Positions 18,023 through 63,990 of a stretch of DNA of 64,000 bases are shown here, piece after piece. The notes beneath the pieces are model-generated. The model worked only from the letters and a program-made list of their open reading frames with translations, searched no databases and was not told the origin of the DNA. The DNA is from Aquimarina intermedia. GTDB lineage: Bacteria > Bacteroidota > Bacteroidia > Flavobacteriales > Flavobacteriaceae. Every line of letters starts with the position of its first letter. Within the stretch, counting starts at the first letter, position 1. Where the stretch lies: NCBI RefSeq assembly GCF_008124785.1, contig NZ_VNHU01000004.1, forward strand, positions 1 to 64,000, given 5' to 3'. The translations under genes were made by a program, and so were the position numbers.

Positions 18023-18508
18023 ATGCCCGAAATTAAAATAAAAACCATCATCAACGCCAAACGTCTAATTGTTTTTGATCTGTCCCGAAGTATTGATCTC
18101 CATAAAATATCTACAGAGCACACAAATGAAACTGCTATTGACGGTAAAACTGAAGGACTAATAGAACTTGGTGAATTTGTAACCTGGAGAGCTAAACACT
18201 TTGGTATATATCAACATTTAACTTCAAAAATAACGAAATATGATCGTCCCAATTCATTTACAGATGAAATGGTCAAAGGAGCCTTCAAAAGTTTCAAACA
18301 TGATCATTATTTCAAAGAAGTAAATGGTAGAACCGAAATGATTGATCTATTTACGTATGAATCACCATTAGGTATATTGGGGAACATTGCTGACAGCTTA
18401 TTTCTTGAAAATTATATAAAAAGACTTTTAATAAAAAGAAATGATACTATAAAGCTTTATGCAGAATCCGGAAAATGGGAAGAATTATTGACTAGCACAC
18501 AGAAATAA
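18023..18508 (+). CDS. SRPBCC-family ligand-binding protein
   Basis: About 161 residues from the ATG at 18023; an upstream TTG at 18014 is also in frame. The whole length fits the START/Bet v1 (SRPBCC) fold: AKRLIVFDLSRSIDLH, TEGLIELGEFVTWRAKHFG, KYDRPNSFTDEMVKGAFKSF and DLFTYESPLGILGNIAD. In Flavobacteria such proteins are often labelled as cell-division-like proteins, but they are best described as small hydrophobic-ligand binders of unknown role. It pairs with the helical protein upstream. Confidence 0.87.
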   Translation: MPEIKIKTIINAKRLIVFDLSRSIDLHKISTEHTNETAIDGKTEGLIELGEFVTWRAKHFGIYQHLTSKITKYDRPNSFTDEMVKGAFKSFKHDHYFKEVNGRTEMIDLFTYESPLGILGNIADSLFLENYIKRLLIKRNDTIKLYAESGKWEELLTSTQK

Positions 18509-18517
18509 GGTCTCACA

Positions 18518-18706
18518 CAATGGAAATATAATCTTCACCTGCCGAAATTTCCGATTGAAGTACGGAAATATCATCTTTAACTAAGGAAATATCCTCTTGA
18601 AGTAAAGAAATATCATCTTGAGGTGCCGAAATGTCATCTTGATGTACGGAAATATCATCATGACCTGCCGAAATTTTCGATTGAAGTATAGAAATCTTAT
18701 CTCACG
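18518..18706. repeat. 21-bp tandem repeat, nine imperfect copies
   Basis: Contiguous 21-bp units start at 18518, 18539, 18560, 18581, 18602, 18623, 18644, 18665 and 18686, with a further decayed copy to ~18727. The common core is GAAATATCATCTTGA. The period is a multiple of three, and on the minus strand one frame stays open from about 18701 to a TGA at 18513-18515. That frame reads as eight heptads of the type QDDISxL/xx. It has no start codon. It may be a remnant of a coiled-coil-coding repeat or a non-coding minisatellite. Confidence 0.85.
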
Positions 18707-18920
18707 ACAAAGAAATTCATGTTGTAGGATATTAGTAGCAAACTATTAAAAGGAAATTCATGGATTTATACTGATGCTCAATAAATTCTATTCTTTTTTA
18801 ACATAAAATTTTACTTTTTTATAATTAATTGCTACTTTGCTCTCTCTTAACGAACAAACACCCACCCCACTTAGTTACGTTGTACGTACACTGTATTGTA
18901 ACCAATTTATTTAAATATAT

Positions 18921-52834: not shown

Positions 52835-53842
52835 TTATACTTTTTCTTTAATTGATGTTAGTTCATAGGGTAAAGATTGCTCAGTTTCCCAAAATGTAAA
52901 TGCATTAATGGTTGTACTAGCAATATTTATTAATGCCTCATCGGTAGCAAAAGCCTGGTGAGGCGTTAATAACACCTTGGGATGTGCTATCATCTTCTTC
53001 AACATTGTATCTTTTGGAGGATGGAGCGAATGATTATAAAAAAAGATGCCATGTTCATGTTCATAAACATCTGACCCATACCATCCGATATGGTTTTTAT
53101 CTAATGCATCCATAATATCAGCAGTCTTAACCACTGCTCCTCTGGCAATATTAATTAACATCACATTTTTCTTCATCAGTGCAATACATGAGGCATCAAT
53201 TAAATGATGCGTGTCCGATGTCAACGGAACACTAATAATGATAATATCACTCTCAGTACATAAAGTATCCAGATCTGTATATGAAACTCCGTATTGTTTT
53301 GACAATTCCTTATTTTCAACTATATCGTTTGCAATCAATTTGCATCCAAATCCTGATAAAATTTTAACGAGGACCTTCCCTATTCTTCCGACACCCAAAA
53401 TGCCCACCTTTTTTTGGAACAAATCAAATCCCACCAAATTACTCAAGGAAAAGTTATATTTTTCAACATTTTTATTGGCAATTATTAATTTTCGATTCAG
53501 TGCTAATAGCAATGCCATAGCATGTTCTGCAATAGCATTTGGTGAATAATCCGGGGTATGGCTGATGCGTATTCCCAACTTTGTAGCAGCTTTAATATTG
53601 ACATTATCATAGCCCGCTGATCGTAATGCAATATATTTTACACCAAAATCTCTTAATAACTCCAAAACCTTAGCAGAACCATCATCGGCAGAAAAGATTG
53701 AAATACCATCAAAACCAATCGCCATCATAGCCGTATCGGCTGCAAGTCTTTCCGGAACATAATGTAAAGTATGATGGTCATTGTTTGCTTTTTCAAGATA
53801 AGGTATCTCAAAATCCTTGGCACTGTAAATTAAGATTTTCAT
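52835..53842 (-). CDS. 2-hydroxyacid dehydrogenase, D-lactate dehydrogenase type
   Basis: 335 residues. NAD-binding VGILGVGRIGKVLVKIL, catalytic Arg in INIARGAVV and catalytic His in LLTPHQAF, with an N-terminal substrate domain starting MKILIYSAKDFEIPYL. It fits the LdhA-type fermentative D-lactate dehydrogenases, reducing pyruvate with NADH. This is consistent with a low-oxygen island. It follows the lipoprotein gene by 35 bp in a minus-strand operon. Substrate specificity is inferred. Confidence 0.9.
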   Translation of the reverse strand: MKILIYSAKDFEIPYLEKANNDHHTLHYVPERLAADTAMMAIGFDGISIFSADDGSAKVLELLRDFGVKYIALRSAGYDNVNIKAATKLGIRISHTPDYSPNAIAEHAMALLLALNRKLIIANKNVEKYNFSLSNLVGFDLFQKKVGILGVGRIGKVLVKILSGFGCKLIANDIVENKELSKQYGVSYTDLDTLCTESDIIIISVPLTSDTHHLIDASCIALMKKNVMLINIARGAVVKTADIMDALDKNHIGWYGSDVYEHEHGIFFYNHSLHPPKDTMLKKMIAHPKVLLTPHQAFATDEALINIASTTINAFTFWETEQSLPYELTSIKEKV

Positions 53843-53877: not shown

Positions 53878-54558
53878 TCATTCATCAATAAAGAAAAGGT
53901 CATCGGTTTCATCTGTCTCTGCACGCATCAATACGTTTTGTTCTTTGAGGGCCCAAATCAGGACTTTTATGTAATCATTTACTGCTTTTTCTATGCGTTG
54001 CGGCTCTGTAATATCAATAGAACCTTTCCATATGGTTTCTCGTTCCCGATCGGGGCAAACGCAGTACAGCGTGGACTCTGCATGATAGATTTTGTACTCA
54101 TCATAATACTTTTCATTATGATAAATGTTTTGATTATTAAAATAATCGTCCTTAAAACTGTCAAACATACGATCCATATTTTTATATGCTTGGGCCAAGG
54201 TCACCTTCTCCTCTACGCCAACGACTTTTGAAATTAATATAGCATCGAACCCTTGCTCAATCAGATTAGACTCTAAGGTAAGTAGTTCCTTTTCTGTTTT
54301 GGGATCTTCTGTATAATTGGTTTCAAAAACCTTGTAACTTGCCAACGCTTTTATACCGTTATTTTCCAGTTGATTAACCAATTTCTTTTCAAAATTTTTT
54401 CTGCTTTTTTCATCTCTTGTCATCCCTACAACTAAGACTTTTTGAGCTTCAAAGATGTCGATATCCGGATGCTTCCAATTCTCAATAAGTTCACTGGAAT
54501 TACAGCCTGAGAAGAGGATTCCGAAAAGTAATATCAAAATATGTTTAAAATTAATCAT
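53878..54558 (-). CDS. Lipoprotein of unknown function
   Basis: 226 residues from ATG 54558 (MINFKHILILLFGILFSGC gives the lipoprotein signal; a start at 54582 adds residues before it). Residues after the Cys contain EAQKVLVVGMTRDEKSRKNFE and DAILISKVVGVEEKVTL, typical of a periplasmic DUF4136-like or related family. Acidic end (ETDETDDLFFIDE). It overlaps the upstream gene by 8 bases. Function unknown. Confidence 0.78.
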   Translation of the reverse strand: MINFKHILILLFGILFSGCNSSELIENWKHPDIDIFEAQKVLVVGMTRDEKSRKNFEKKLVNQLENNGIKALASYKVFETNYTEDPKTEKELLTLESNLIEQGFDAILISKVVGVEEKVTLAQAYKNMDRMFDSFKDDYFNNQNIYHNEKYYDEYKIYHAESTLYCVCPDRERETIWKGSIDITEPQRIEKAVNDYIKVLIWALKEQNVLMRAETDETDDLFFIDE

Positions 54559-55075
54559 GTGTGCTAGGGTTGTTATGGACATTTAATAATGAATCTAATC
54601 GATTTGTTATTTTCTTAGCGTATAAAGGTGTATGTTCTATTATAGACTCTCCCGAAATCATATCAACATCTTTTAGACTGAAATTGTAACTTCCAATGGT
54701 GGAGAGAATTATTAACTTATTTAATTGATCTGGATGTTTTGCAATAAACTTTTTTACATTTTTAGGAGGGCTCGCATATTCCCATGAATTAATAATGATG
54801 AGCGCATCCCATTTATCAATTTTCACTGTAAAAAGGGTATACGCATCAATAATTTTAAAATAAATTGGTTCATTATGATAATGTTTAATAATATGCTGAA
54901 CCAATGAGTCTTTAAATGCACTACCTTGAGAGGCAATTAAAACTTTATTTGGCAACGCTCTAGAATTTACCTCAAACGGAATGACAGTATCCATAGAATA
55001 CGTGTAATCGTACCATATCCAAAAAGCAACGGACAAAAGGGAAAGCAAAATTCCTATTTTTATAAGGTTTCTCAA
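54551..55075 (-). CDS. Membrane-anchored protein of unknown function
   Basis: 174 residues with one N-terminal membrane helix (LIKIGILLSLLSVAFWIW) and a periplasmic domain that resembles a truncated flavodoxin/Rossmann shape (NKVLIASQGSAFKDSLVQHI, WDALIIINSWEYASPPKN). It overlaps the lipoprotein gene by 8 bases and lies 31 bp after the next gene upstream, so the four are one minus-strand operon ending in the LDH. Function unknown. Confidence 0.72.
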   Translation of the reverse strand: MRNLIKIGILLSLLSVAFWIWYDYTYSMDTVIPFEVNSRALPNKVLIASQGSAFKDSLVQHIIKHYHNEPIYFKIIDAYTLFTVKIDKWDALIIINSWEYASPPKNVKKFIAKHPDQLNKLIILSTIGSYNFSLKDVDMISGESIIEHTPLYAKKITNRLDSLLNVHNNPSTHD

Positions 55076-55106: not shown

Positions 55107-55550
55107 CTATTTTAATAATCGTTTTTGTTTATTATGTTTCATAATTGTCTTGATCAAATCAAAAACTTGTCGCTTTACAGCTTTATACTCATTCAAATAT
55201 TCAGTAACCTCAATGTATAACGACCTATTCTCTTCTTTATATTCTTTCTCTTCCTCCAACTGATTTATACCATCCATCAAAATGGTTAGTTTGTTGTGAT
55301 GATTGATAATCTTTTTGAGCATGGGTTCAATTGCTTTGCGCTTATCAGACAATCCATTAATGACAGTTTTACTCTTCGCAAAATTTTTATCTGATAACAT
55401 CTGCAGTGAGAAACTCTCCAATAATTCATCCAAAAAATGTTGTTCATCTTTAATAAATTTTAACTCAGAGATCCAGGTAAGGGCAATCTCATGCATTTCT
55501 TCAGGACTGCGCCATTCTATGTATTTTGGATTTATGGTTTTACTTTTCAT
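55107..55550 (-). CDS. Helical cytosolic protein of unknown function
   Basis: 147 residues, charged and all-helical: EEMHEIALTWISELKFIKDE, AIEPMLKKIINHHNKLTILM and EYKAVKRQVFDLIKTIMKHN. No signal or membrane segment. In size and helix pattern it resembles the protein at 56309-56713 and may be a distant paralogue. First gene of the operon that includes the lipoprotein and LDH. No FNR-type box is found upstream, in contrast to its neighbours. Confidence 0.68.
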   Translation of the reverse strand: MKSKTINPKYIEWRSPEEMHEIALTWISELKFIKDEQHFLDELLESFSLQMLSDKNFAKSKTVINGLSDKRKAIEPMLKKIINHHNKLTILMDGINQLEEEKEYKEENRSLYIEVTEYLNEYKAVKRQVFDLIKTIMKHNKQKRLLK

Positions 55551-55754: not shown

Positions 55755-56198
55755 CTATCCAATTTGAATGATCTTCTTTGGTAGTTCTTTGGCTTCCTCC
55801 TTTTTTGGTAATTTAAATTTTAAAATACCATTCTTATAAGTCGCCTTGACATCCTTTTTCTGATCTATAGTATTAGGTAATTGAAGTTTTCTATCAAACT
55901 CCCGGTAATTAAATTCTCTACGGGTATAGGTCTCATCTTCTTCTACTTCTTCTTTTTTAGACTTGGCGCACACATGGAGCATATCATCTTCCATAGTCAC
56001 CTCAATATCTTCTTTGGAGTACCCCGGAACCGCAAGTTCAATCTCAAAATCGTCCTTATGCTCTTTTACATTCATTGCTGGAAGATCTCTATCTTTTACA
56101 AAGAAATCATCAGAGAAAAATTCATTGGTATCTAACCAATTAGATACGTTATCGTTGATCCAAGGAAATCGTTTTTTACTGAAATTAATTAATGACAT
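55755..56198 (-). CDS. Hsp20/alpha-crystallin small heat-shock protein
   Basis: 147 residues. N-terminal arm with FPWINDNVSNWLDTNEFF, then an alpha-crystallin domain (DLPAMNVKEHKDDFEIELAV, PGYSKEDIEVTMEDDMLHV, FDRKLQLPNTID, ATYKNGILKFKLPK) and the C-terminal IxI-like KKIIQIG tail. It holds unfolded proteins under stress. It carries an FNR-type box 74 bp upstream, so induction by oxygen limitation or redox change is likely in addition to heat. Confidence 0.95.
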   Translation of the reverse strand: MSLINFSKKRFPWINDNVSNWLDTNEFFSDDFFVKDRDLPAMNVKEHKDDFEIELAVPGYSKEDIEVTMEDDMLHVCAKSKKEEVEEDETYTRREFNYREFDRKLQLPNTIDQKKDVKATYKNGILKFKLPKKEEAKELPKKIIQIG

Positions 56199-56240: not shown

Positions 56241-56283
56241 TGAAAGTACCGTTTAACTCACTCAGATAAAATGATAAAAATCA
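56241..56283 (-). promoter_or_regulatory. FNR/CRP-type box plus -7 element of hsp20
   Basis: TGAT-AAAA-ATCA at 56272-56283 is a perfect palindromic FNR box. Minus-strand TACTTTCA (56248 down to 56241) is a one-mismatch -7 element. Centre-to-element distance is 29.5 bp, as in the other island promoters. Confidence 0.72.
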
Positions 56284-56308: not shown

Positions 56309-56713
56309 TTATTGTTTCAAAATATTAGCTGTCACTTTGTAAATTTCATTTTTTTGTTGGTTAAACATCTTACAGAAATCCTTATAGATATATTTCATCT
56401 TTTTGTGATTCTTATTGTAATAGTGATCACATGATATGGTATCACATTCCATTAAACCTCCCAGCTGATTTTCATGCTGATGCAATTTTTCGTACAACAC
56501 AGAAGATGCTTTTTCAATATCTTTGAGTTTAGTATTGAATCTTTCTAACAACTCATACAAATTGGGTACAGTTGGCTCAAAAGCCTTGGAAGCTAGCAAC
56601 TTTTTGAGAAAATACAGTTCAACTCCCAATGCTTGAAGATTAGTTTTCCAATTCATTACTTCTAAATGAAAGGATTTAACTTCTTTATCTTCCATCTCCA
56701 TCTCTGTTCTCAT
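56309..56713 (-). CDS. Helical cytosolic protein of unknown function
   Basis: 134 residues, helical and charged (FHLEVMNWKTNLQALGVELY, LERFNTKLKDIEKASSVLYE) with CDTISCDHYYNKNHKK, a Cys/His cluster that could bind metal. The start could also be Met5 or Met7. No family recognised. It stands alone with an FNR-type box upstream and lies between hsp20 and the metallohydrolase gene on the same strand. Confidence 0.72.
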   Translation of the reverse strand: MRTEMEMEDKEVKSFHLEVMNWKTNLQALGVELYFLKKLLASKAFEPTVPNLYELLERFNTKLKDIEKASSVLYEKLHQHENQLGGLMECDTISCDHYYNKNHKKMKYIYKDFCKMFNQQKNEIYKVTANILKQ

Positions 56714-56857: not shown

Positions 56858-58222
56858 TCACAGATTTACCACCTCATTATGATTCGGTATTTTTACTCGC
56901 CAACTGTAAACATCCTTAATTTTAACACGTAAGCTGTCTAAGGCTGTTGCTTCGCCGTGTATTAAAAAAACCTGTTCAGGTATGTTTTTAATTTCATTGG
57001 TCCAGTCCAATAGCTCCGATTGATCCGCATGTGCTGATAAACTTTGATCATAAAAAATTCCGGCTCTTACAGGTATATACTTCCCAAATATTTTAATTTC
57101 GTGAGCGCCTTCTTGTAGTTGTCTTCCGCGAGTACCCTCTGCTTGATACCCTACCAAAAGCACCGAGGTATTTTGATTATCAATAAGTTGTTTTAAATAG
57201 GTTAAAACTCTACCCCCGGTAACCATACCGCTTCCGGCAATTACAATTTTTGGTGCAGGGTTGTCAATAACTTCCCAAGTCTCTCTATAAGAAGTTACGA
57301 TATTAATATGTTCGAAGATATTACGCAGCTCCGGTAAAGAAATTTTATGCCATTCCGAAAAGCGTTCAAACACAGAAATAACCGAGTTGCCCATCGGACT
57401 ATCTACATATATGGGTATATTAGGAATCTTATTCCTTTTATAAAGCGTCCACAAGATATACATCAGTGTTTGCAATCGTTCTACTGCAAATGAAGGAATT
57501 ATTAAAGTTCCGCCATTCTGAATAGTCTCCTTAATGAGGTATATTAATTTTTCTTCTATATTCTCTTCTGGGTGACATTTATTACCATAGGTGCTTTCTA
57601 AAAATAAATAATCCGCCCATTGAGGTTTCTTAGGGTTTCTGAGTAATTTATCGTTTTTACGTCCTACATCTCCAGAAAAAACCAAGACTTTTCCATTAAT
57701 TTCAAGCTCGATAAAGGTAGCACCAAGTATGTGACCGTTATAATTGAATCTATATCTGATATCCGTTGAAAGATCATACCACTCCCCTTCTTTCTTGTTT
57801 TTAAAACGTTGAATGGTTTGTTCTGCTTGCTTTATTGTGTAAAATGGTAGCGCTACTTCATGTATTGAATACCCCTCTTTATTAGCCTTTTCTGCTTCTT
57901 CTTCGTGAATTTTTGCACTATCTTTTAATATGATTTCGGTTATAGCCAAGGTTGGCGAGGTTCCTATGATGTCACCTGCAAATCCTTGTTGAACCAACCT
58001 GGGTAAATAGCCTGTATGATCTAAATGTCCATGGGTAAGTAATACTATATCAATTTGCGAAACATCTATTGGTAGTGGATCCCAGTTCAAACTTCTCAAC
58101 TTCTTTATTCCCTGAAACATTCCACAATCTATGAGTATATTTTGTTGCGGAGTTTCAATATAAAATTTTGAACCCGTTACCGTCTCCGCTGCTCCCAAAA
58201 AATGTATTTTTATTGCTGTCAT
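56858..58222 (-). CDS. MBL-fold RNA metallohydrolase (beta-CASP)
   Basis: 454 residues. Metallo-beta-lactamase domain with the zinc motif LLTHGHLDHTGYLPRL (H64, H66, D68, H69), FSGDVGRK and a beta-CASP insertion (LIIPSFAVERLQTLMYILW, IYVDSPMGNSVI, KIVIAGSGMVTGGRVLTYL). Bacterial relatives of CPSF-73 cut or trim RNA. The start overlaps the nuclease gene by 4 bases. Expected substrate is RNA under stress, by family knowledge. Confidence 0.94.
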   Translation of the reverse strand: MTAIKIHFLGAAETVTGSKFYIETPQQNILIDCGMFQGIKKLRSLNWDPLPIDVSQIDIVLLTHGHLDHTGYLPRLVQQGFAGDIIGTSPTLAITEIILKDSAKIHEEEAEKANKEGYSIHEVALPFYTIKQAEQTIQRFKNKKEGEWYDLSTDIRYRFNYNGHILGATFIELEINGKVLVFSGDVGRKNDKLLRNPKKPQWADYLFLESTYGNKCHPEENIEEKLIYLIKETIQNGGTLIIPSFAVERLQTLMYILWTLYKRNKIPNIPIYVDSPMGNSVISVFERFSEWHKISLPELRNIFEHINIVTSYRETWEVIDNPAPKIVIAGSGMVTGGRVLTYLKQLIDNQNTSVLLVGYQAEGTRGRQLQEGAHEIKIFGKYIPVRAGIFYDQSLSAHADQSELLDWTNEIKNIPEQVFLIHGEATALDSLRVKIKDVYSWRVKIPNHNEVVNL

Positions 58223-59073
58223 ATTGTATTTTCAAGATTACAAAGCATGTCGATCTCACTCATGATTTTATTTTTACGAGTATCTGATATTCCCAAATGG
58301 TCTAAATAAAACGTATCTTTAATGAGTTGTCTCAATAACACGACATCTCGACTAAGCAAAAATTGTTTCTCTCTATTACTGAGTAAAGTGGATGTAGTAA
58401 TGGGATACAATCCCAAACGATCGATACGATCTTTGAGCGCATCATTCTTGGGGTAATCCCAACTAAGTAATTGTAAATCGACACAACTCCCATATTGTAT
58501 AGCATCTGTAGTGAATCTGGTGTTAGTCACTACCCATCCTTTGGTGAACTGTGGGAAATAGGATTTGGTAATTTCATTCTTTTTAAGGATATCTTTATAG
58601 CGCGAGTGAATATAGAGAGGGACTTTTACATTACAATTACGTCCTTCTTCACTATGATATTTACATTCGATTAATAGATGCTGCTGCTCCTTTTTTGCAA
58701 TAACATCTACTTCGTGGGAAACGCAGTACCCCTGTATGATCTTGCCTACCTCAACAGTATACCCAGAAAATTTCAAAATCGCTGCTACAAAACGTTCAAA
58801 TGGGAAACCCGTGGGACCCAATTCATAAATAGCTTTTTTTAATTTGTATTTTGAAGCATACACCGATTTTTGCTGTTTAAGCATGGCAAAGGCTCTATTA
58901 TAAATTTCTTTGGTAGAAATCCCTTCATAAAGTTCATTGCGAACAGTATCCAAGATTTGCTGGATAATAGTATCATTTGCTCCACTACGTTGCAAGGACC
59001 TTCTAAGTTTTGTAAAGGAAAATTTTGCCCGTTCACCAGAAGATTTTATTACATCAATCTCTTGTGTTATCAT
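58219..59073 (-). CDS. ATP-cone domain fused to Mrr-like nuclease
   Basis: 284 residues. Residues ~3-92 form an ATP-cone (VIKSSGERAKFSFTKLRRSL ... YASKYKLKKAIYELGP), a nucleotide-sensing domain otherwise found in ribonucleotide reductases and NrdR. From ~85 a PD-(D/E)xK endonuclease domain follows with SHEVDVIAKK (Asp123) and LLIECKYH (Glu136, Lys138), the complete catalytic triad. It couples nuclease activity to ATP/dATP status, presumably. It overlaps the beta-CASP gene by 4 bases, so the two are one translational unit. Confidence 0.9.
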   Translation of the reverse strand: MITQEIDVIKSSGERAKFSFTKLRRSLQRSGANDTIIQQILDTVRNELYEGISTKEIYNRAFAMLKQQKSVYASKYKLKKAIYELGPTGFPFERFVAAILKFSGYTVEVGKIIQGYCVSHEVDVIAKKEQQHLLIECKYHSEEGRNCNVKVPLYIHSRYKDILKKNEITKSYFPQFTKGWVVTNTRFTTDAIQYGSCVDLQLLSWDYPKNDALKDRIDRLGLYPITTSTLLSNREKQFLLSRDVVLLRQLIKDTFYLDHLGISDTRKNKIMSEIDMLCNLENTI

Positions 59074-59097
59074 ATATGCATTGCTATAAGGTTAAAG

Positions 59098-59496
59098 CTA
59101 ATTTCTGTAATATTCTCTAACCCAAGCCTTCATCTGATTGTCTGTCATACTATCAGCTTTCTGCACTTCTCGAAGCTTTTTTATGATCATAGGATGATTT
59201 TCACTTAGCTCTTTTCTAAGCTTTTCTCCCGTTTCTGCCGGACCAAAAATTACGATGCTATTTGCTTCATCAAGAAAAGGAATGATTTTTTTAAAATAAG
59301 CCTTTGTTTGATGCTTCTCTCTTTCCAAATATTTGCTGTCTTGCACCACATCCTGAGGTCCTCCTTTAAACCGAGTGCCCGATCCTCCTTGAATATGGAA
59401 ATCTTCGATCTCAGAAAATACTGTTTCAATCGTGTCCTTTTCTAAATCAACAATTTTTGTTTTTTCTTTATCTATCCAAATACCTACATTTTTCAT
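59098..59496 (-). CDS. Small protein resembling release-factor-like (baeRF/host-attachment) family
   Basis: 132 residues. KNVGIWIDKEKTKIVDLEKD at the N-terminus and EANSIVIFGPAETGEKLRKE later match the compact central domain of bacterial eRF1-like (baeRF) or host-attachment proteins, which are thought to act on stalled ribosomes. The GGQ-type loop is not seen. It is 25 bp after a Usp gene and 24 bp before the ATP-cone nuclease, within one operon. Assignment is by pattern and moderate. Confidence 0.72.
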   Translation of the reverse strand: MKNVGIWIDKEKTKIVDLEKDTIETVFSEIEDFHIQGGSGTRFKGGPQDVVQDSKYLEREKHQTKAYFKKIIPFLDEANSIVIFGPAETGEKLRKELSENHPMIIKKLREVQKADSMTDNQMKAWVREYYRN

Positions 59497-59521
59497 CAGT
59501 GTGTTTTTTAAAATTCTGTTT

Positions 59522-60373
59522 TTAGTTTCTCAAATCGTGTAATGCCAATACCGGAATTTTAGAATGATAACCCAAATCTTTTACCATAGGTCTGGACAAA
59601 ATACTTCCAAAAAAAGTGTGCTTTTTATTAATAAAAGTAATCATGTCGCTCTGTCTACTCTCAACAAAGCAACTTAAAGCACTTTTAATATCTATGTTAT
59701 GCAAGGTGTGGAAAGAGTATTCTAACCCATCAAAGTATTCTTCGAGCAATTGCTTATTGTTTTCCTGTTCGGGAGTGAGCTTTTCTTTATCCGTTACATG
59801 CAAAACGCGGATGGATGAATTGTTATACTTAGCAATGTCTATTAAGAAATCCAACTCTCTGCGTTTGACGTGAGTTTTTAAACTGGACGGAAATACAATT
59901 TCTTTTGGTTCCTTAAAGGAAACTTCTTTAGGTATTGCCAGTACCGGACAGTTTCTTATTTTCTCCATGACCAATACCGTATTACTACCATAAATTACGT
60001 TACTCGCATTGGTAGCACCCTGAGTACCCATCACGATCATTTCAATATCTTTCATCTCCACAGTATCCCGTATGGCTTCCAGTAAGGTATTAAACTGAGA
60101 AATGGGAATGTACTCATGATTGGGATTTTCCTCTCTCATCCCTAACCGCTCGAGAATTTTAGCCAATCCCTTGTCTGACTTTTCTTTTAATTCCTCATAA
60201 ATTCTTTCGCCGGGTTCTGGCACCATCATACTGTCTAAAGCATAGCCGGTTGCATTAAAAGTGTTAAGAATATAAAATTCACATTGCTGATTTTTATACA
60301 GTTCAATTGCATATTTAATAGCGTTCCACGCGTTCATGGAAAAATCTGTTGGTAATAAAATTTTCTTTTTCAT
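59522..60373 (-). CDS. Universal stress protein (tandem UspA domains)
   Basis: 283 residues. First domain KKKILLPTDFSMNAWNAIKY with ATP motif GTQGATNASNVIYGSNT (perfect G-2x-G-9x-G-S) and PVLAIPKEV end; the second UspA domain lacks it. First gene of an operon with the baeRF-like protein, ATP-cone nuclease and beta-CASP hydrolase, under an FNR-type promoter (60442-60484) that overlaps the end of the preceding usp gene. Confidence 0.93.
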   Translation of the reverse strand: MKKKILLPTDFSMNAWNAIKYAIELYKNQQCEFYILNTFNATGYALDSMMVPEPGERIYEELKEKSDKGLAKILERLGMREENPNHEYIPISQFNTLLEAIRDTVEMKDIEMIVMGTQGATNASNVIYGSNTVLVMEKIRNCPVLAIPKEVSFKEPKEIVFPSSLKTHVKRRELDFLIDIAKYNNSSIRVLHVTDKEKLTPEQENNKQLLEEYFDGLEYSFHTLHNIDIKSALSCFVESRQSDMITFINKKHTFFGSILSRPMVKDLGYHSKIPVLALHDLRN

Positions 60374-60441: not shown

Positions 60442-60484
60442 TAAAAGTAGTCCCTCAACCCTAATATAACTATGATATTTATCA
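60442..60484 (-). promoter_or_regulatory. FNR/CRP-type box plus -7 element of usp-nuclease operon
   Basis: TGAT-ATTT-ATCA at 60473-60484 is a perfect FNR palindrome. Minus-strand TACTTTTA (60449 down to 60442) is a close -7 element. Spacing 29.5 bp. The box overlaps the last codon of the upstream usp gene. Confidence 0.75.
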
Positions 60485-61330
60485 GCTTAGACCAGGAATA
60501 ACCATAAAAGGAATTTCCACGTGTAGTCCGATCTTTCTAATTACAGATTCGCGAGTCATTCGCTCAATAAAGCTATGCTTATAATTGACCATAAAGAGCA
60601 TACGAATGTTATACTCCCTTATATAATTACTGATACTCTCTGATTTTTCTTTCTGTTTTTCTAACCAATGTACACTCACTTCTACATCTCCCAAATGCTC
60701 CAAGAGCTTATCATAATTGTACTGCTGGATTTCATCCAACTTCCCTGTTTCTCTAATATGTAAAATGTGTAATTCTGCTTTAAACATTTCCAGTAATCTA
60801 GTTATTGGTGCAATCTCATCTTTACCATAAAAGCGACGTAGATCGGTTGAAAAGGCTATATCTTTGGGATTAGTAAAAACATACTCACTGGGAATCATTA
60901 AGGTAGGACACAGCGTATTGCCTTGAACGACTCGTATGGTATTGCTTCCCAAAAGATACTCCTTAGCACGTGTTGCCCCTTGGGTTCCCATTACTACAAG
61001 GTCTATTTTCTTACGTTTGATTGTATTTTGTACAGTTTCAACTAATTTTTTTGAAATAGAAAGCGTTTCAAAACTATGGTTATAATCCTCACAATCCCGT
61101 GTGATCGCGTGTAGTGTTTCTGCCAAACCATCTTTGGATGCACAACTTAGTCTGGTATACAACACGTTTCCCTTTGTGGTATCTATTCTACTTGTAAGTA
61201 TTGGTGTATCAACCTCAAAAGTATTTAAAAGATAAAATTTACACTCTTGATCCTTAAAAAGTCGTGTAGCATAGAATAAAGCATTGTAAGCATTTTGTGA
61301 AAAATCAGTAGGAACTAAAATGGTTTTCAT
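60482..61330 (-). CDS. Universal stress protein (tandem UspA domains)
   Basis: 282 residues. N-terminal UspA domain MKTILVPTDFSQNAYNALFY with ATP motif GTQGATRAKEYLLGSNT; C-terminal domain without it (ISNYIREYNIRMLFMVNYKH). Single gene with its own FNR-type promoter (61360-61402). Compared with its neighbours it is a diverged copy in the array. Confidence 0.92.
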   Translation of the reverse strand: MKTILVPTDFSQNAYNALFYATRLFKDQECKFYLLNTFEVDTPILTSRIDTTKGNVLYTRLSCASKDGLAETLHAITRDCEDYNHSFETLSISKKLVETVQNTIKRKKIDLVVMGTQGATRAKEYLLGSNTIRVVQGNTLCPTLMIPSEYVFTNPKDIAFSTDLRRFYGKDEIAPITRLLEMFKAELHILHIRETGKLDEIQQYNYDKLLEHLGDVEVSVHWLEKQKEKSESISNYIREYNIRMLFMVNYKHSFIERMTRESVIRKIGLHVEIPFMVIPGLS

Positions 61331-61359
61331 AATAATTATATATTAAAATCTAATACATA

Positions 61360-61402
61360 TAAAATTACTACGATCGAATGAACAGAACTATGACATAGAT
61401 CA
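61360..61402 (-). promoter_or_regulatory. FNR/CRP-type box plus -7 element
   Basis: TGAC-ATAG-ATCA at 61391-61402, with minus-strand TAATTTTA (61367 down to 61360) as -7 element. Spacing 29.5 bp. Shares the AACTATGAYA...ATCAG extended flank. Confidence 0.7.
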
Positions 61403-62257
61403 GGTATCTGAAGGAATTACCAGGAAAGGAATCTTGGTATTAAATGTTATTTTCCTGATCACTGCTTCCCTAATTAATTCTTCCAGAAAGCTGTGTTTAT
61501 AATTAATCATTGCTAACATCTCAACATCCTCTTCATCAATAAAGCTCGTAATTCCTTTGGTAACACCAGAAAAGTTGGGGACCACATAAAATTCATACTC
61601 CAGATTCTTAAAGTAATTATCCAAAGCACCAGAATTGTAGTTTTGCACATGAGACAAGGAAGGCGCGTCATATATGTGTAACATACAAACCTTTGCACCA
61701 AACTGTTTTGCAATTTTCTTAATTGGTTTTATTTCTGCTTTATAATAAATCCTCTCAAAATCGGTAGCAAATACAATAGAACGGATGGGTGAAAAATTCA
61801 CTTCATCAGGAATTACTAAAATTGGACACCTATCAACATTTTTAATGAGACTATGTGTATTGCTTCCCAAAAATAAAGCTCTGGCTCCCGTTGCTCCTTT
61901 GGTACCAATGCATATTAGCTCATACGTTTGTGTATTTACCATATCCTTAATAACGTCAACAAAATCCCCTTTTCTTGAATGAACATTGAACACGTGCGTG
62001 GAATCCGGATACGAGTTGGATATATCATCTAAGATACTGTTTAAACCCGCTTCCGACTCTTTTTTTATCAAATCCTGGAAAAATCCAATCCGTTGTGAAC
62101 TTAAGGTGGTAGCTAATTGTGAAGGATGTACATCATAGACATGAACAATATCAAATTGACATGAGCTGCCTTTATACAATTGCATCGCATACACAATAGT
62201 GTTCCATGCATTATCAGAAAAATCTGTTGGAATCAATATTCTTTTATCAGTTTGCAT
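61400..62257 (-). CDS. Universal stress protein (tandem UspA domains)
   Basis: 285 residues. DKRILIPTDFSDNAWNTIVY opens domain 1; ATP motif GTKGATGARALFLGSNTH. Second domain ends in FNTKIPFLVIPSD. It starts 5 bp after the preceding usp gene, so translation of the two is probably coupled, and both belong with the outermost usp gene to one transcript. Confidence 0.92.
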   Translation of the reverse strand: MQTDKRILIPTDFSDNAWNTIVYAMQLYKGSSCQFDIVHVYDVHPSQLATTLSSQRIGFFQDLIKKESEAGLNSILDDISNSYPDSTHVFNVHSRKGDFVDVIKDMVNTQTYELICIGTKGATGARALFLGSNTHSLIKNVDRCPILVIPDEVNFSPIRSIVFATDFERIYYKAEIKPIKKIAKQFGAKVCMLHIYDAPSLSHVQNYNSGALDNYFKNLEYEFYVVPNFSGVTKGITSFIDEEDVEMLAMINYKHSFLEELIREAVIRKITFNTKIPFLVIPSDT

Positions 62258-62262
62258 AAGCT

Positions 62263-63120
62263 CTAGGATGATTGTAACCGCTTTTCTGACGGAATCACTA
62301 AAAACGGAATATTTGTATGGTAAGCGATTTGATTAATTACCGGTTTAAAAAGCAAGTTTTCAAAGAAGGAATGACGATTATGGATCATAATCAACAGATT
62401 AATCTTTATTTTTTTCTGAAAATCTTCAACAGCTTCCATCACATCCATACCGTCTGCAATATGAAATATATGGGCATTTGTTTTGAAATAGTCGTCTAGA
62501 TATGCTTTCACTTCTTCTTGATGTGCATCTAACTTAACCCCGTAATACGCATTTAAAATATTCAATCGGGATCCGTGATCTTCACAAATATCTTTGATTA
62601 GCGGTAAAAATTCATTGGTAGTGTGCAGATTAAAGTCCGTAGGAAACAGTATTTCAAGTGGTTTTTCATATTCAAAATTATCAGGAACTGCTAACACAGG
62701 GCATTTAGCTTTCTTAATTGTATACATTGTATGCGTACCTATAAAAACTTCCTTCGCACCGGTAGCTCCCTTAGTGCCCATAATGATAAGATCTATAGAA
62801 TATTTATCTATCATCTCCTTAATCTCACCTATCAACGTATTAAATGCAGAACATCGCACAAATGTAAAGTTTGAAGTATCAAATTCTTCTTTTATCTTAT
62901 CTTCTGTTCGCTCGATATCCCGTTTAGAATTCATCATAGCCACATCCTCCATTCCATATAAGGTTGGATTTTCTATCAAATAGCCTGTGTGGTAAGATAC
63001 CGGTGTAAATGTATTTAGTAAATAAAAAGTAACTTCTTCCTTCTTCAACAACTGCATAGCATAACGAATGGCGTTCATCGCATTGTCAGAAAAATCAGTG
63101 GGTAATAAAACATTTTTCAT
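62263..63120 (-). CDS. Universal stress protein (tandem UspA domains)
   Basis: 285 residues. KNVLLPTDFSDNAMNAIRYA opens domain 1; ATP motif GTKGATGAKEVFIGTHT (G-T in place of G-S). Domain 2 with LLIMIHNRHSFFENLLF. It lies 24 bp after the gene at 63145-63990 and 5 bp before the next, in an array of five genes of the same length and orientation. Confidence 0.92.
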   Translation of the reverse strand: MKNVLLPTDFSDNAMNAIRYAMQLLKKEEVTFYLLNTFTPVSYHTGYLIENPTLYGMEDVAMMNSKRDIERTEDKIKEEFDTSNFTFVRCSAFNTLIGEIKEMIDKYSIDLIIMGTKGATGAKEVFIGTHTMYTIKKAKCPVLAVPDNFEYEKPLEILFPTDFNLHTTNEFLPLIKDICEDHGSRLNILNAYYGVKLDAHQEEVKAYLDDYFKTNAHIFHIADGMDVMEAVEDFQKKIKINLLIMIHNRHSFFENLLFKPVINQIAYHTNIPFLVIPSEKRLQSS

Positions 63121-63144
63121 AAATTTAGATTTAAAATTACGTAG

Positions 63145-63990
63145 TTATCTGCTTAGATTCTGCATAACGAAAAAAGGAACTTTTAAATGCAATCCTATTT
63201 TATCTATCGTTGATTGATATAATATACTTTCCAGATACGAATGTCTTGAGTTAATCATAACAAGCATTTGAGCTCCGTAATCATCAATACATGTATTGAT
63301 TGCCGTTGTTAAATCATCAGAATCTCGTGTATGAAATTTTATTTCATTATCAGACAACGCTTCCTCTAGAAAAGCCTTATTATCTTCTTGACGAATAGCT
63401 AATTTTTCAAATTTGGATACATATAAGCAATGGATAATAGATCGATAACTCTTTGATAAAGAATGCAAAATTTTCAACTCTCTACGCTTATAAGGCAACC
63501 TAAAATCAGTAGGAAACAGAATGGTTTTAGGCCGGATATAGTTATATCCTGAAGGTATGGCCAACACAGGACATTTTACATATTTTAATACCTGAAGGGT
63601 ATGACTTCCAAAAGTGATTTTACGGTCATCGGTTTTACCGCGAGTTCCCATAATAACCACATCAATATTTTGTTCGTCTACCAACTCATTAGTCTCATCT
63701 ACCAAGTTGCCAAATCTGGACAAGGTCTTATAGGTATGTCTCGGATTAGGTGATATTTCAGCGAGTTTTTTAAGTAATGCAGCTAGCGCGTTTTCAGACG
63801 TTTGAAGCACCGAGGCCTTATAATCATCTAATAGCTCACGTGAGATTACACTGTTATTATCATATACCTCATCAGCATAAGCATGCATAATAAAAAACTC
63901 ACATCGTTCATACTTAAAAAGTTCTACAGCATAGTGTAAGGCGTTCAATGCGTTATCAGAAAAGTCAGTGGGAACTATAATTTTTTTCAT
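63145..63990 (-). CDS. Universal stress protein (tandem UspA domains)
   Basis: 281 residues. KKIIVPTDFSDNALNALHYA opens domain 1; ATP motif GTRGKTDDRKITFGSHT, the most divergent of the five but all motif positions intact. First gene of the minus-strand array within the window; its promoter is beyond the end, so the presence of a box there cannot be seen. Confidence 0.92.
   Translation of the reverse strand: MKKIIVPTDFSDNALNALHYAVELFKYERCEFFIMHAYADEVYDNNSVISRELLDDYKASVLQTSENALAALLKKLAEISPNPRHTYKTLSRFGNLVDETNELVDEQNIDVVIMGTRGKTDDRKITFGSHTLQVLKYVKCPVLAIPSGYNYIRPKTILFPTDFRLPYKRRELKILHSLSKSYRSIIHCLYVSKFEKLAIRQEDNKAFLEEALSDNEIKFHTRDSDDLTTAINTCIDDYGAQMLVMINSRHSYLESILYQSTIDKIGLHLKVPFFVMQNLSR

Follow-up and report, generated by a model that had tools for sequence, protein, structure and literature searches.

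In unrelated bacteria, low-oxygen gene sets include genes for universal stress proteins (Usp), Hsp20, beta-CASP proteins and phosphorylases, whose joint purpose is unclear. In the expression tables of Bradyrhizobium diazoefficiens drawn on here, the genes for a metallo-beta-lactamase (MBL) protein (bll3115), the phosphoribosyl pyrophosphate (PRPP) synthetase PrsA (bll3116) and thymidine phosphorylase (TP; bll3117) are among 71 genes/proteins passing the looser threshold at 0.5% O2, with protein log2 changes of 2.9, 4.4 and 2.1 and transcript increases of 15.4-, 7.7- and 5.1-fold, respectively (PMC6515984). In a second data set from this organism, bll3117-bll3116-bll3115 form one predicted operon, which has a FixK2 box at -74; in the delta-fixK2 strain, MBL changed by -30.6-fold and TP by -6.6-fold, and the same table holds phosphoketolase-acetate kinase, Hsp20, Usp and a host attachment protein (PMC9104804). 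Here, we analyzed a 64,000-nucleotide stretch of the Aquimarina intermedia genome (contig NZ_VNHU01000004.1, positions 1 to 64,000; assembly GCF_008124785.1), called the window below. It carries an operon for a Usp (USP1), a 132-aa protein (BRF), an ATP-cone nuclease (NUC) and a beta-CASP MBL protein (MBL), which an earlier note had read as one energy-state-controlled system for the turnover of RNA, ribosomes or foreign nucleic acid. Judging by gene order and trees, the conserved unit is the NUC-MBL pair, and the operon of four genes is a local variant of it.

Conservation was surveyed in a single, fixed set of 395 genomes from the phylum of the window, Bacteroidota, with three profiles (E ≤ 1e-15 for NUC, E ≤ 1e-5 for BRF and E ≤ 1e-60 for MBL). 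NUC was present in 72 genomes at 77 loci, two NUC fragments (second pieces in G257 and G185) having been excluded; BRF was present in 81 genomes and MBL-type proteins in 236. MBL was the next gene downstream on the same strand in 43 of the 77 NUC loci (41 genomes), and the gap between the profile matches was -4 to 55 bases in 42 of these pairs and 324 bases in one. The linkage counts draw on the best 62 places from a longer MBL list and on 16 places from the BRF list. Among these matches, 43 of 44 MBLs with at least 600 bits were NUC-adjacent, the genome of the exception having both genes unlinked; only NUC-adjacent MBLs had served as seeds of the MBL profile, and the threshold of 600 bits was chosen after a score gap (615.6 to 582) had been seen. 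At 500 bits or more, 43 of 50 listed MBLs were NUC-linked. BRF lay within 10 kb of NUC in 6/77 NUC loci and adjacent to it in 4, again among the matches listed. Usp genes were found on the same strand within five genes of NUC in 15/82 loci (neighborhood counts cover 82 of 83 loci, L089 being left out). The four genes as a single system are not supported by these counts. The earlier note had taken independent occurrence of the genes in related genomes as a sign against its proposal; in the genomes surveyed, BRF and Usp proved separable in this way, and even NUC has no MBL next to it in 34/77 loci. The earlier note had found something real, with the boundary drawn round the wrong genes.

In the MBL tree (with 12 of the 19 listed non-linked places and five plasmid MBLs; the linked MBLs of L076 and L089 are absent), the label NUC-linked needed 2 changes versus a shuffled mean of 13.7, and linked MBLs separated from the unlinked MBLs tested with one exception. 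The paired/solo label of the NUC tree needed 10 changes versus 26.7 after shuffling (L076 is drawn as solo though counted as paired, and L015, whose NUC is truncated, is not included). Together with the solo NUC loci, these label changes indicate that MBLs of this clade accompany NUC, whereas NUC is also found without them. Common descent of the NUC-linked MBLs is shown by their grouping in the tree. In the window's own genus, its genome included, NUC was present in 8/21 genomes; six of these eight have the order Usp-BRF-NUC-MBL, and the other two have Usp, NUC, MBL, TP and PrsA with one small extra open reading frame called in between.

In the window, all four genes lie on the minus strand with gaps of 25 bp (Usp-BRF) and 24 bp (BRF-NUC) and a 4-base overlap of NUC and MBL, as the earlier note had placed them; its domain identities and complete catalytic residues were also borne out by Pfam and by residue alignment of homologues. 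NUC passes the Pfam cut-offs for ATP-cone (PF03477; 2e-7, 31.9 bits versus a cut-off of 25.8; approximately residues 8-76) and Mrr_cat (1.3e-6). The D...ExK residues of a PD-(D/E)xK nuclease are D123, E136 and K138 in the Mrr-type domain, and E93, H120, E121, D123, E136 and K138 were identical in 81/81 aligned homologues. Since residues 94-273 match archaeal AF1548 (PDB 1y88; E 1.7e-23), the region C-terminal to the nuclease domain is also common to both proteins. As a single-protein query against genome contigs, NUC found one relative (Winogradskyella), and a structure model from a two-row alignment (window and L002) was too poor to inform (mean pLDDT 49.5).

MBL combines the Pfam domains Lactamase_B, Beta-Casp and RMMBL. 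Residues H66, D68, H69, H164, D185, H398 and H422 were kept in 47/47 NUC-linked MBLs, and H64 in 46 with one gap. The three domains, the HxHxDH motif and the C-terminal histidine motifs place MBL among beta-CASP RNases of the CPSF73/TTHA0252 kind, and RNase activity is predicted. Its best PDB profile matches were Cas14 (4.1e-87) and TTHA0252 (7.7e-81), and its closest solved relatives are mostly RNA processors. Cas14, the type VII CRISPR effector (PDB 8yhd; NF045584), is the top match, but MBL reached 386 bits versus an NCBIfam cut-off of 800, and model positions 1-430 of 612 were matched while 431-612 were not. No CRISPR-like array was found in the window, where a search for direct repeats of at least 23 nt within 120 bases returned one 21-nt periodic family only. 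A type VII CRISPR reading of MBL was rejected on these three grounds. The periodic repeat, at window positions 18502-18711, consists of six overlapping copies of an 84-nt reference.

Genes of sugar and energy metabolism recur around NUC and MBL in some loci. TP and PrsA follow NUC-MBL in 4/82 loci, and NUC-MBL-TP-PrsA also occurs on plasmids of Pontibacter actiniarum and of Criblamydia sequanensis, the latter belonging to another phylum. On the Criblamydia sequanensis plasmid (L178), phosphoketolase and glucan phosphorylase genes come before this run, and acetate kinase and glucoamylase family genes after it; an integrase gene lies close by. In 72,556 plasmid records, NUC had 2 matches; MBL relatives (E ≤ 1e-60) were found on 204 plasmid records. 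Two of three proteobacterial plasmid regions examined hold PrsA, phosphoketolase (Pfam XFP; annotated as epimerase), MBL and TP, and in the third MBL is accompanied by Usps and by genes of the arginine deiminase pathway. A LOG-family gene was next to or near NUC in 4/82 loci (L015, L069, L082 and L118); in these, NUC lacks MBL (and is truncated in L015), and three of the four have two ABC-2 permease genes as well. Within one family of the phylum, glutaredoxin was near NUC in 7/82 loci and an ATP-cone-glucoamylase fusion in 4/82. The fusion (L058:7193-8719, plus strand; cluster also in L056, L057 and L059) lies two genes after an MBL-less NUC; the one member tested matched Pfam ATP-cone at 4.5e-7 and Glycoamylase at 3.6e-87, so that it is apparently a second energy-sensing hydrolase, as judged from its domains. 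Within the genus, the deoxyribose-phosphate aldolase gene deoC was present in 11/19 genomes, i.e., in 6/6 NUC carriers and 5/13 others (p 0.018; with related genomes, such p values do not count as independent tests), and in 5/6 carriers DeoC and NUC share a contig at a distance of 26-46 kb. The Deo run of the window genome (L195:2127-5203) begins with a 131-aa gene and has thioredoxin, DeoC and DeoD behind an operator core of the kind described next.

The operon belongs to a 14-gene island with the order USP5-USP4-USP3-USP2-USP1-BRF-NUC-MBL-cc134-HSP20-cc147-p174-lipo234-LDH (Table 1). This order is retained in five genus members, one with extra Usp pieces, and in part in Winogradskyella litoriviva; USP1 partners at the same position in 6 related loci share 51-72% identity.

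Table 1. Features of the window around the NUC-MBL operon.
Feature	Position	Strand	Support or remark
2-hydroxyacid (D-lactate-type) dehydrogenase (LDH), island end	52835..53842	-	219.8 bits with NCBIfam D-lactate dehydrogenase, short of its cut-off of 356
174-aa (p174) and 234-aa (lipo234) hypothetical proteins, island-conserved	53878..55075	-	
cc147, 147-aa protein, same sequence cluster as cc134	55107..55550	-	
Hsp20 small heat-shock protein	55755..56198	-	Pfam 5.5e-24
Operator core TGATAAAAATCA upstream of Hsp20	56272..56283		
cc134, 134-aa protein, island-conserved	56309..56713	-	no Pfam family above cut-off
MBL, CPSF73/TTHA0252-type beta-CASP metallo-beta-lactamase protein, predicted RNase	56858..58222	-	Pfam, PDB, motifs, tree
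NUC, ATP-cone + Mrr-type PD-(D/E)xK nuclease + C-terminal region	58219..59073	-	Pfam, PDB profile match
BRF, 132-aa single-domain protein, probably eRF1-domain-2 (baeRF-like)	59098..59496	-	weak profile matches in family
USP1, universal stress protein, first gene of operon	59522..60373	-	Pfam Usp 4.1e-18, above cut-off
FNR-like operator core TGATATTTATCA, about 100 bp before Usp start, upstream of operon	60473..60484		
USP2-USP5, four further Usp genes, order conserved	60482..63990	-	

The FNR-type promoter claimed for the operon survived in its shorter core, TGATATTTATCA, while the full TTGAT-N4-ATCAA consensus is absent upstream: TTGAYNNNNRTCAA with at most one mismatch did not occur upstream of the operon and was found 13 times in the window versus 15.6 expected. 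The core TGATATTTATCA occurred 6 times in the window versus 2.1 expected, a number reached in 4/100 shuffles. TGAT-N4-ATCA stands before USP1, before HSP20 and before cc134 in 5/7 loci each (window included). Over the 83 loci, the core was counted 48 times in 84 kb of intergenic and 53 times in 934 kb of coding DNA, the reversed control giving 3 and 9. In the window genome, TGATAWWTATCA occurred 12 times versus 2 for the reversed pattern; these sites lie, among other places, at the window operon, at a P-type ATPase gene with cbb3 oxidase genes behind it (ccoI-ccoS-ccoN), at the run ending in thioredoxin-DeoC-DeoD, in a gap between Usp and peroxiredoxin genes and upstream of an MBL-rhodanese gene. 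Beyond the window end (L194:2463-6499, L201), P-type ATPase, COX1, FixO, FixP and FixG domain proteins are encoded with a core upstream; a radical-SAM gene in the same region is taken to be hemN-like. Beside the Deo run lie genes for a PAS histidine kinase and for a response regulator that carries a cNMP-binding domain; the locus ends there before any helix-turn-helix (HTH) domain. In six loci (L054, L100, L101, L102, L111 and L114), a kinase and a regulator belonging to these clusters are encoded just ahead of NUC or its Usp/Hsp20 genes; by Pfam, the L102 pair combines a PAS kinase with a response regulator that has cNMP-binding and Crp HTH domains. With a conserved palindromic core at both the operon and the cbb3 oxidase genes, as for FNR/FixK-type regulators, low-oxygen induction of the window operon is predicted.

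The assignment of BRF to the baeRF proteins, made in the earlier note, is weakly supported. BRF alone had no Pfam match; over 15 homologues, eRF1_2 was matched in 3 (best 0.0045) and baeRF_family10 in 1 (2.3e-4), and the family matched pelota at E 0.08. The loop is variable in length and sequence over the 15 homologues and lacks the GGQ of active aeRF-1-type peptidyl hydrolases; GGPQ is retained in the 7 closest. With a structure model from the two-row alignment of window and L002 (mean pLDDT 58.8), Foldseek returned nothing at E ≤ 0.001. On the profile matches of its family, BRF is likely baeRF-like.

A nuclease paired with an RNase-type protein in a low-oxygen island suggests that such bacteria may degrade nucleic acid to gain energy when both oxygen and ATP are short, and the theme of the earlier note, energy state and nucleic-acid turnover in stressed cells, is supported. 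Building on domain content, catalytic residues, NUC-MBL linkage, the common ancestry of linked MBLs, the shared operator core and the pentose-releasing neighbors of some loci, we tentatively favor, at somewhat below even confidence, that NUC-MBL is a low-oxygen, adenylate-gated module for nucleic-acid breakdown that feeds pentose phosphates into ATP production. In the window organism, falling oxygen would, through FNR/FixK-like control, switch on NUC-MBL together with Usp, the ribosome-factor-like protein, Hsp20, the high-affinity oxidase and nucleoside-catabolism genes. The ATP-cone would gate NUC by the adenylate/dATP state, so that at low ATP NUC would make entry cuts in RNA or DNA; equally possible for the ATP-cone are a nuclease held off at plentiful ATP and dATP sensing. 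MBL would degrade RNA, and TP with PrsA, LOG-type enzymes or DeoD with DeoC would turn the resulting nucleotides/nucleosides into (deoxy)ribose phosphates, which may then yield ATP by substrate-level phosphorylation through glycolysis or phosphoketolase-acetate kinase. Meanwhile, BRF, Usp and Hsp20 may protect idle ribosomes and proteins. The stronger form of this idea, a dedicated oxygen-controlled, ATP-gated machine burning the cell's own nucleic acid, rRNA above all, as an emergency ATP source, is rather unlikely.

Several observations weigh against the breakdown module. MBL is not adjacent in 34/77 NUC loci, TP-PrsA stands behind the pair only in a minority of loci, and TP scored above thymidine-phosphorylase cut-offs and below that for AMP phosphorylase (481.7 vs 535). 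Against PDB, the ATP-cone profile matched ribonucleotide reductases weakly (0.35-0.83), below helical-repeat designs and annexins. The exact core was found at only 9/74 NUC operon starts (control 0), and 5/12 TGATAWWTATCA sites lie inside predicted genes and may be due to chance. The core stands before the 131-aa first gene of the Deo run in 6/15 genus genomes having that gene (control 0); since two of these six give no DeoC match, the tie of the core to DeoC is not firm. In the tables of PMC6515984 used here, bll3115, bll3116 and bll3117 are unmarked as direct FixK2 targets or as bacteroid-changed. Because of this FixK2-target column and the loose core-DeoC tie, our estimates for the module and for its rRNA-fuel form were slightly lowered.

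The main rival holds that NUC-MBL trims or retires selected RNAs in dormancy, as RNA quality control or an orderly stop of translation with BRF on idle ribosomes and no catabolic purpose. BRF and Usp in the window operon, the RNA processors among the solved relatives of MBL and the proposal, in the part of PMC6514570 drawn on, that baeRF-1 proteins act together with hibernation factors would fit such a role. With BRF adjacent in only 4/77 NUC loci (among the matches listed) and pentose-releasing and sugar/energy enzymes recurring as neighbors in some loci, we regard it as possible, if on the unlikely side. SNM1-like beta-CASP enzymes act on DNA ends, and MBL might do likewise beside a repair, recombination or DNA-salvage nuclease whose ATP-cone senses dATP. 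NUC resembles Mrr_cat and AF1548, and DeoC accompanies NUC in the genus, on the same contig in 5/6 carriers; however, the best matches of MBL are RNA enzymes with the RMMBL domain, TP, PrsA and LOG point to ribose, and the DeoC association has a p of 0.018 over related genomes. A DNA role is improbable.

As a bystander, NUC-MBL would be an ordinary pair for RNA maturation that came under a stress promoter, in agreement with the abundance of MBL-type proteins (236/395 genomes at E ≤ 1e-60). Yet, with one exception, the NUC-linked MBLs are separate in the tree from the unlinked MBLs tested, and the same company recurs in other contexts and phyla; among the matches listed, linked MBLs occur in 41/395 genomes and are thus dispensable. 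Such a bystander pair is quite improbable. The poorest prospect is an abortive-infection nuclease pair triggered by phages draining ATP/dATP, for which the patchy distribution of NUC (72/395 genomes, 8/21 in the genus), its Mrr-type domain and a distant similarity to ZorD speak. That similarity, the best PADLOC match, reached 7.3e-6 and 22 bits, so that no family matched strongly, and the neighbors are respiratory, fermentative and stress genes with an FNR-like core. NUC had no match in 50,697 phage records, and of 29 stretches matching a pattern in a scan of viral contigs none was a relative. Foreign nucleic acid as a target is not supported by these findings.

The favored breakdown module turns the pairing of an ATP-cone nuclease with an RNase-type gene into a concrete, testable hypothesis, i.e., that nucleic acid serves as an energy reserve which adenylates control directly; if true, the ATP-cone would be used outside ribonucleotide reduction and its regulation. 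In the open-access literature searched, covering the top titles of the longer result lists, no description of an ATP-cone nuclease with MBL or Usp was found. As far as these searches reach, the NUC-MBL pair in a low-oxygen energy island is undescribed, while its parts and setting are known.

Each part can be compared with a known relative. NUC shares the ATP-cone, by Pfam cut-off, with ribonucleotide reductases and NrdR, but in NUC the cone, with its predicted nucleotide binding, is coupled to a nuclease. AF1548, an archaeal hypothetical protein, is alike in nuclease domain and C-terminal region; the match begins at NUC residue 94, leaving the ATP-cone outside. The similarity of MBL to TTHA0252 (PDB 2dkf and others) and CPSF73-type beta-CASP RNases extends over nearly the whole protein with motifs retained, and MBL, its activity predicted, differs in its gene pairing with NUC. 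Like the baeRF-1 clade of aeRF-1, BRF probably has a single eRF1-domain-2-like domain with a variable loop, but its family link is weak, and the neighborhood named in the part of PMC6514570 used is that of HPF rather than NUC-MBL. The B. diazoefficiens operon bll3117-bll3116-bll3115 (PMC9104804, PMC6515984) resembles the window operon in having the same kinds of genes under a low-oxygen regulator of the CRP/FNR type, the likeness of bll3115 to MBL being one of gene kind. It differs in that TP and PrsA are not part of the window operon and that no ATP-cone nuclease is among the table rows consulted. Its induction and fixK2 dependence were measured.

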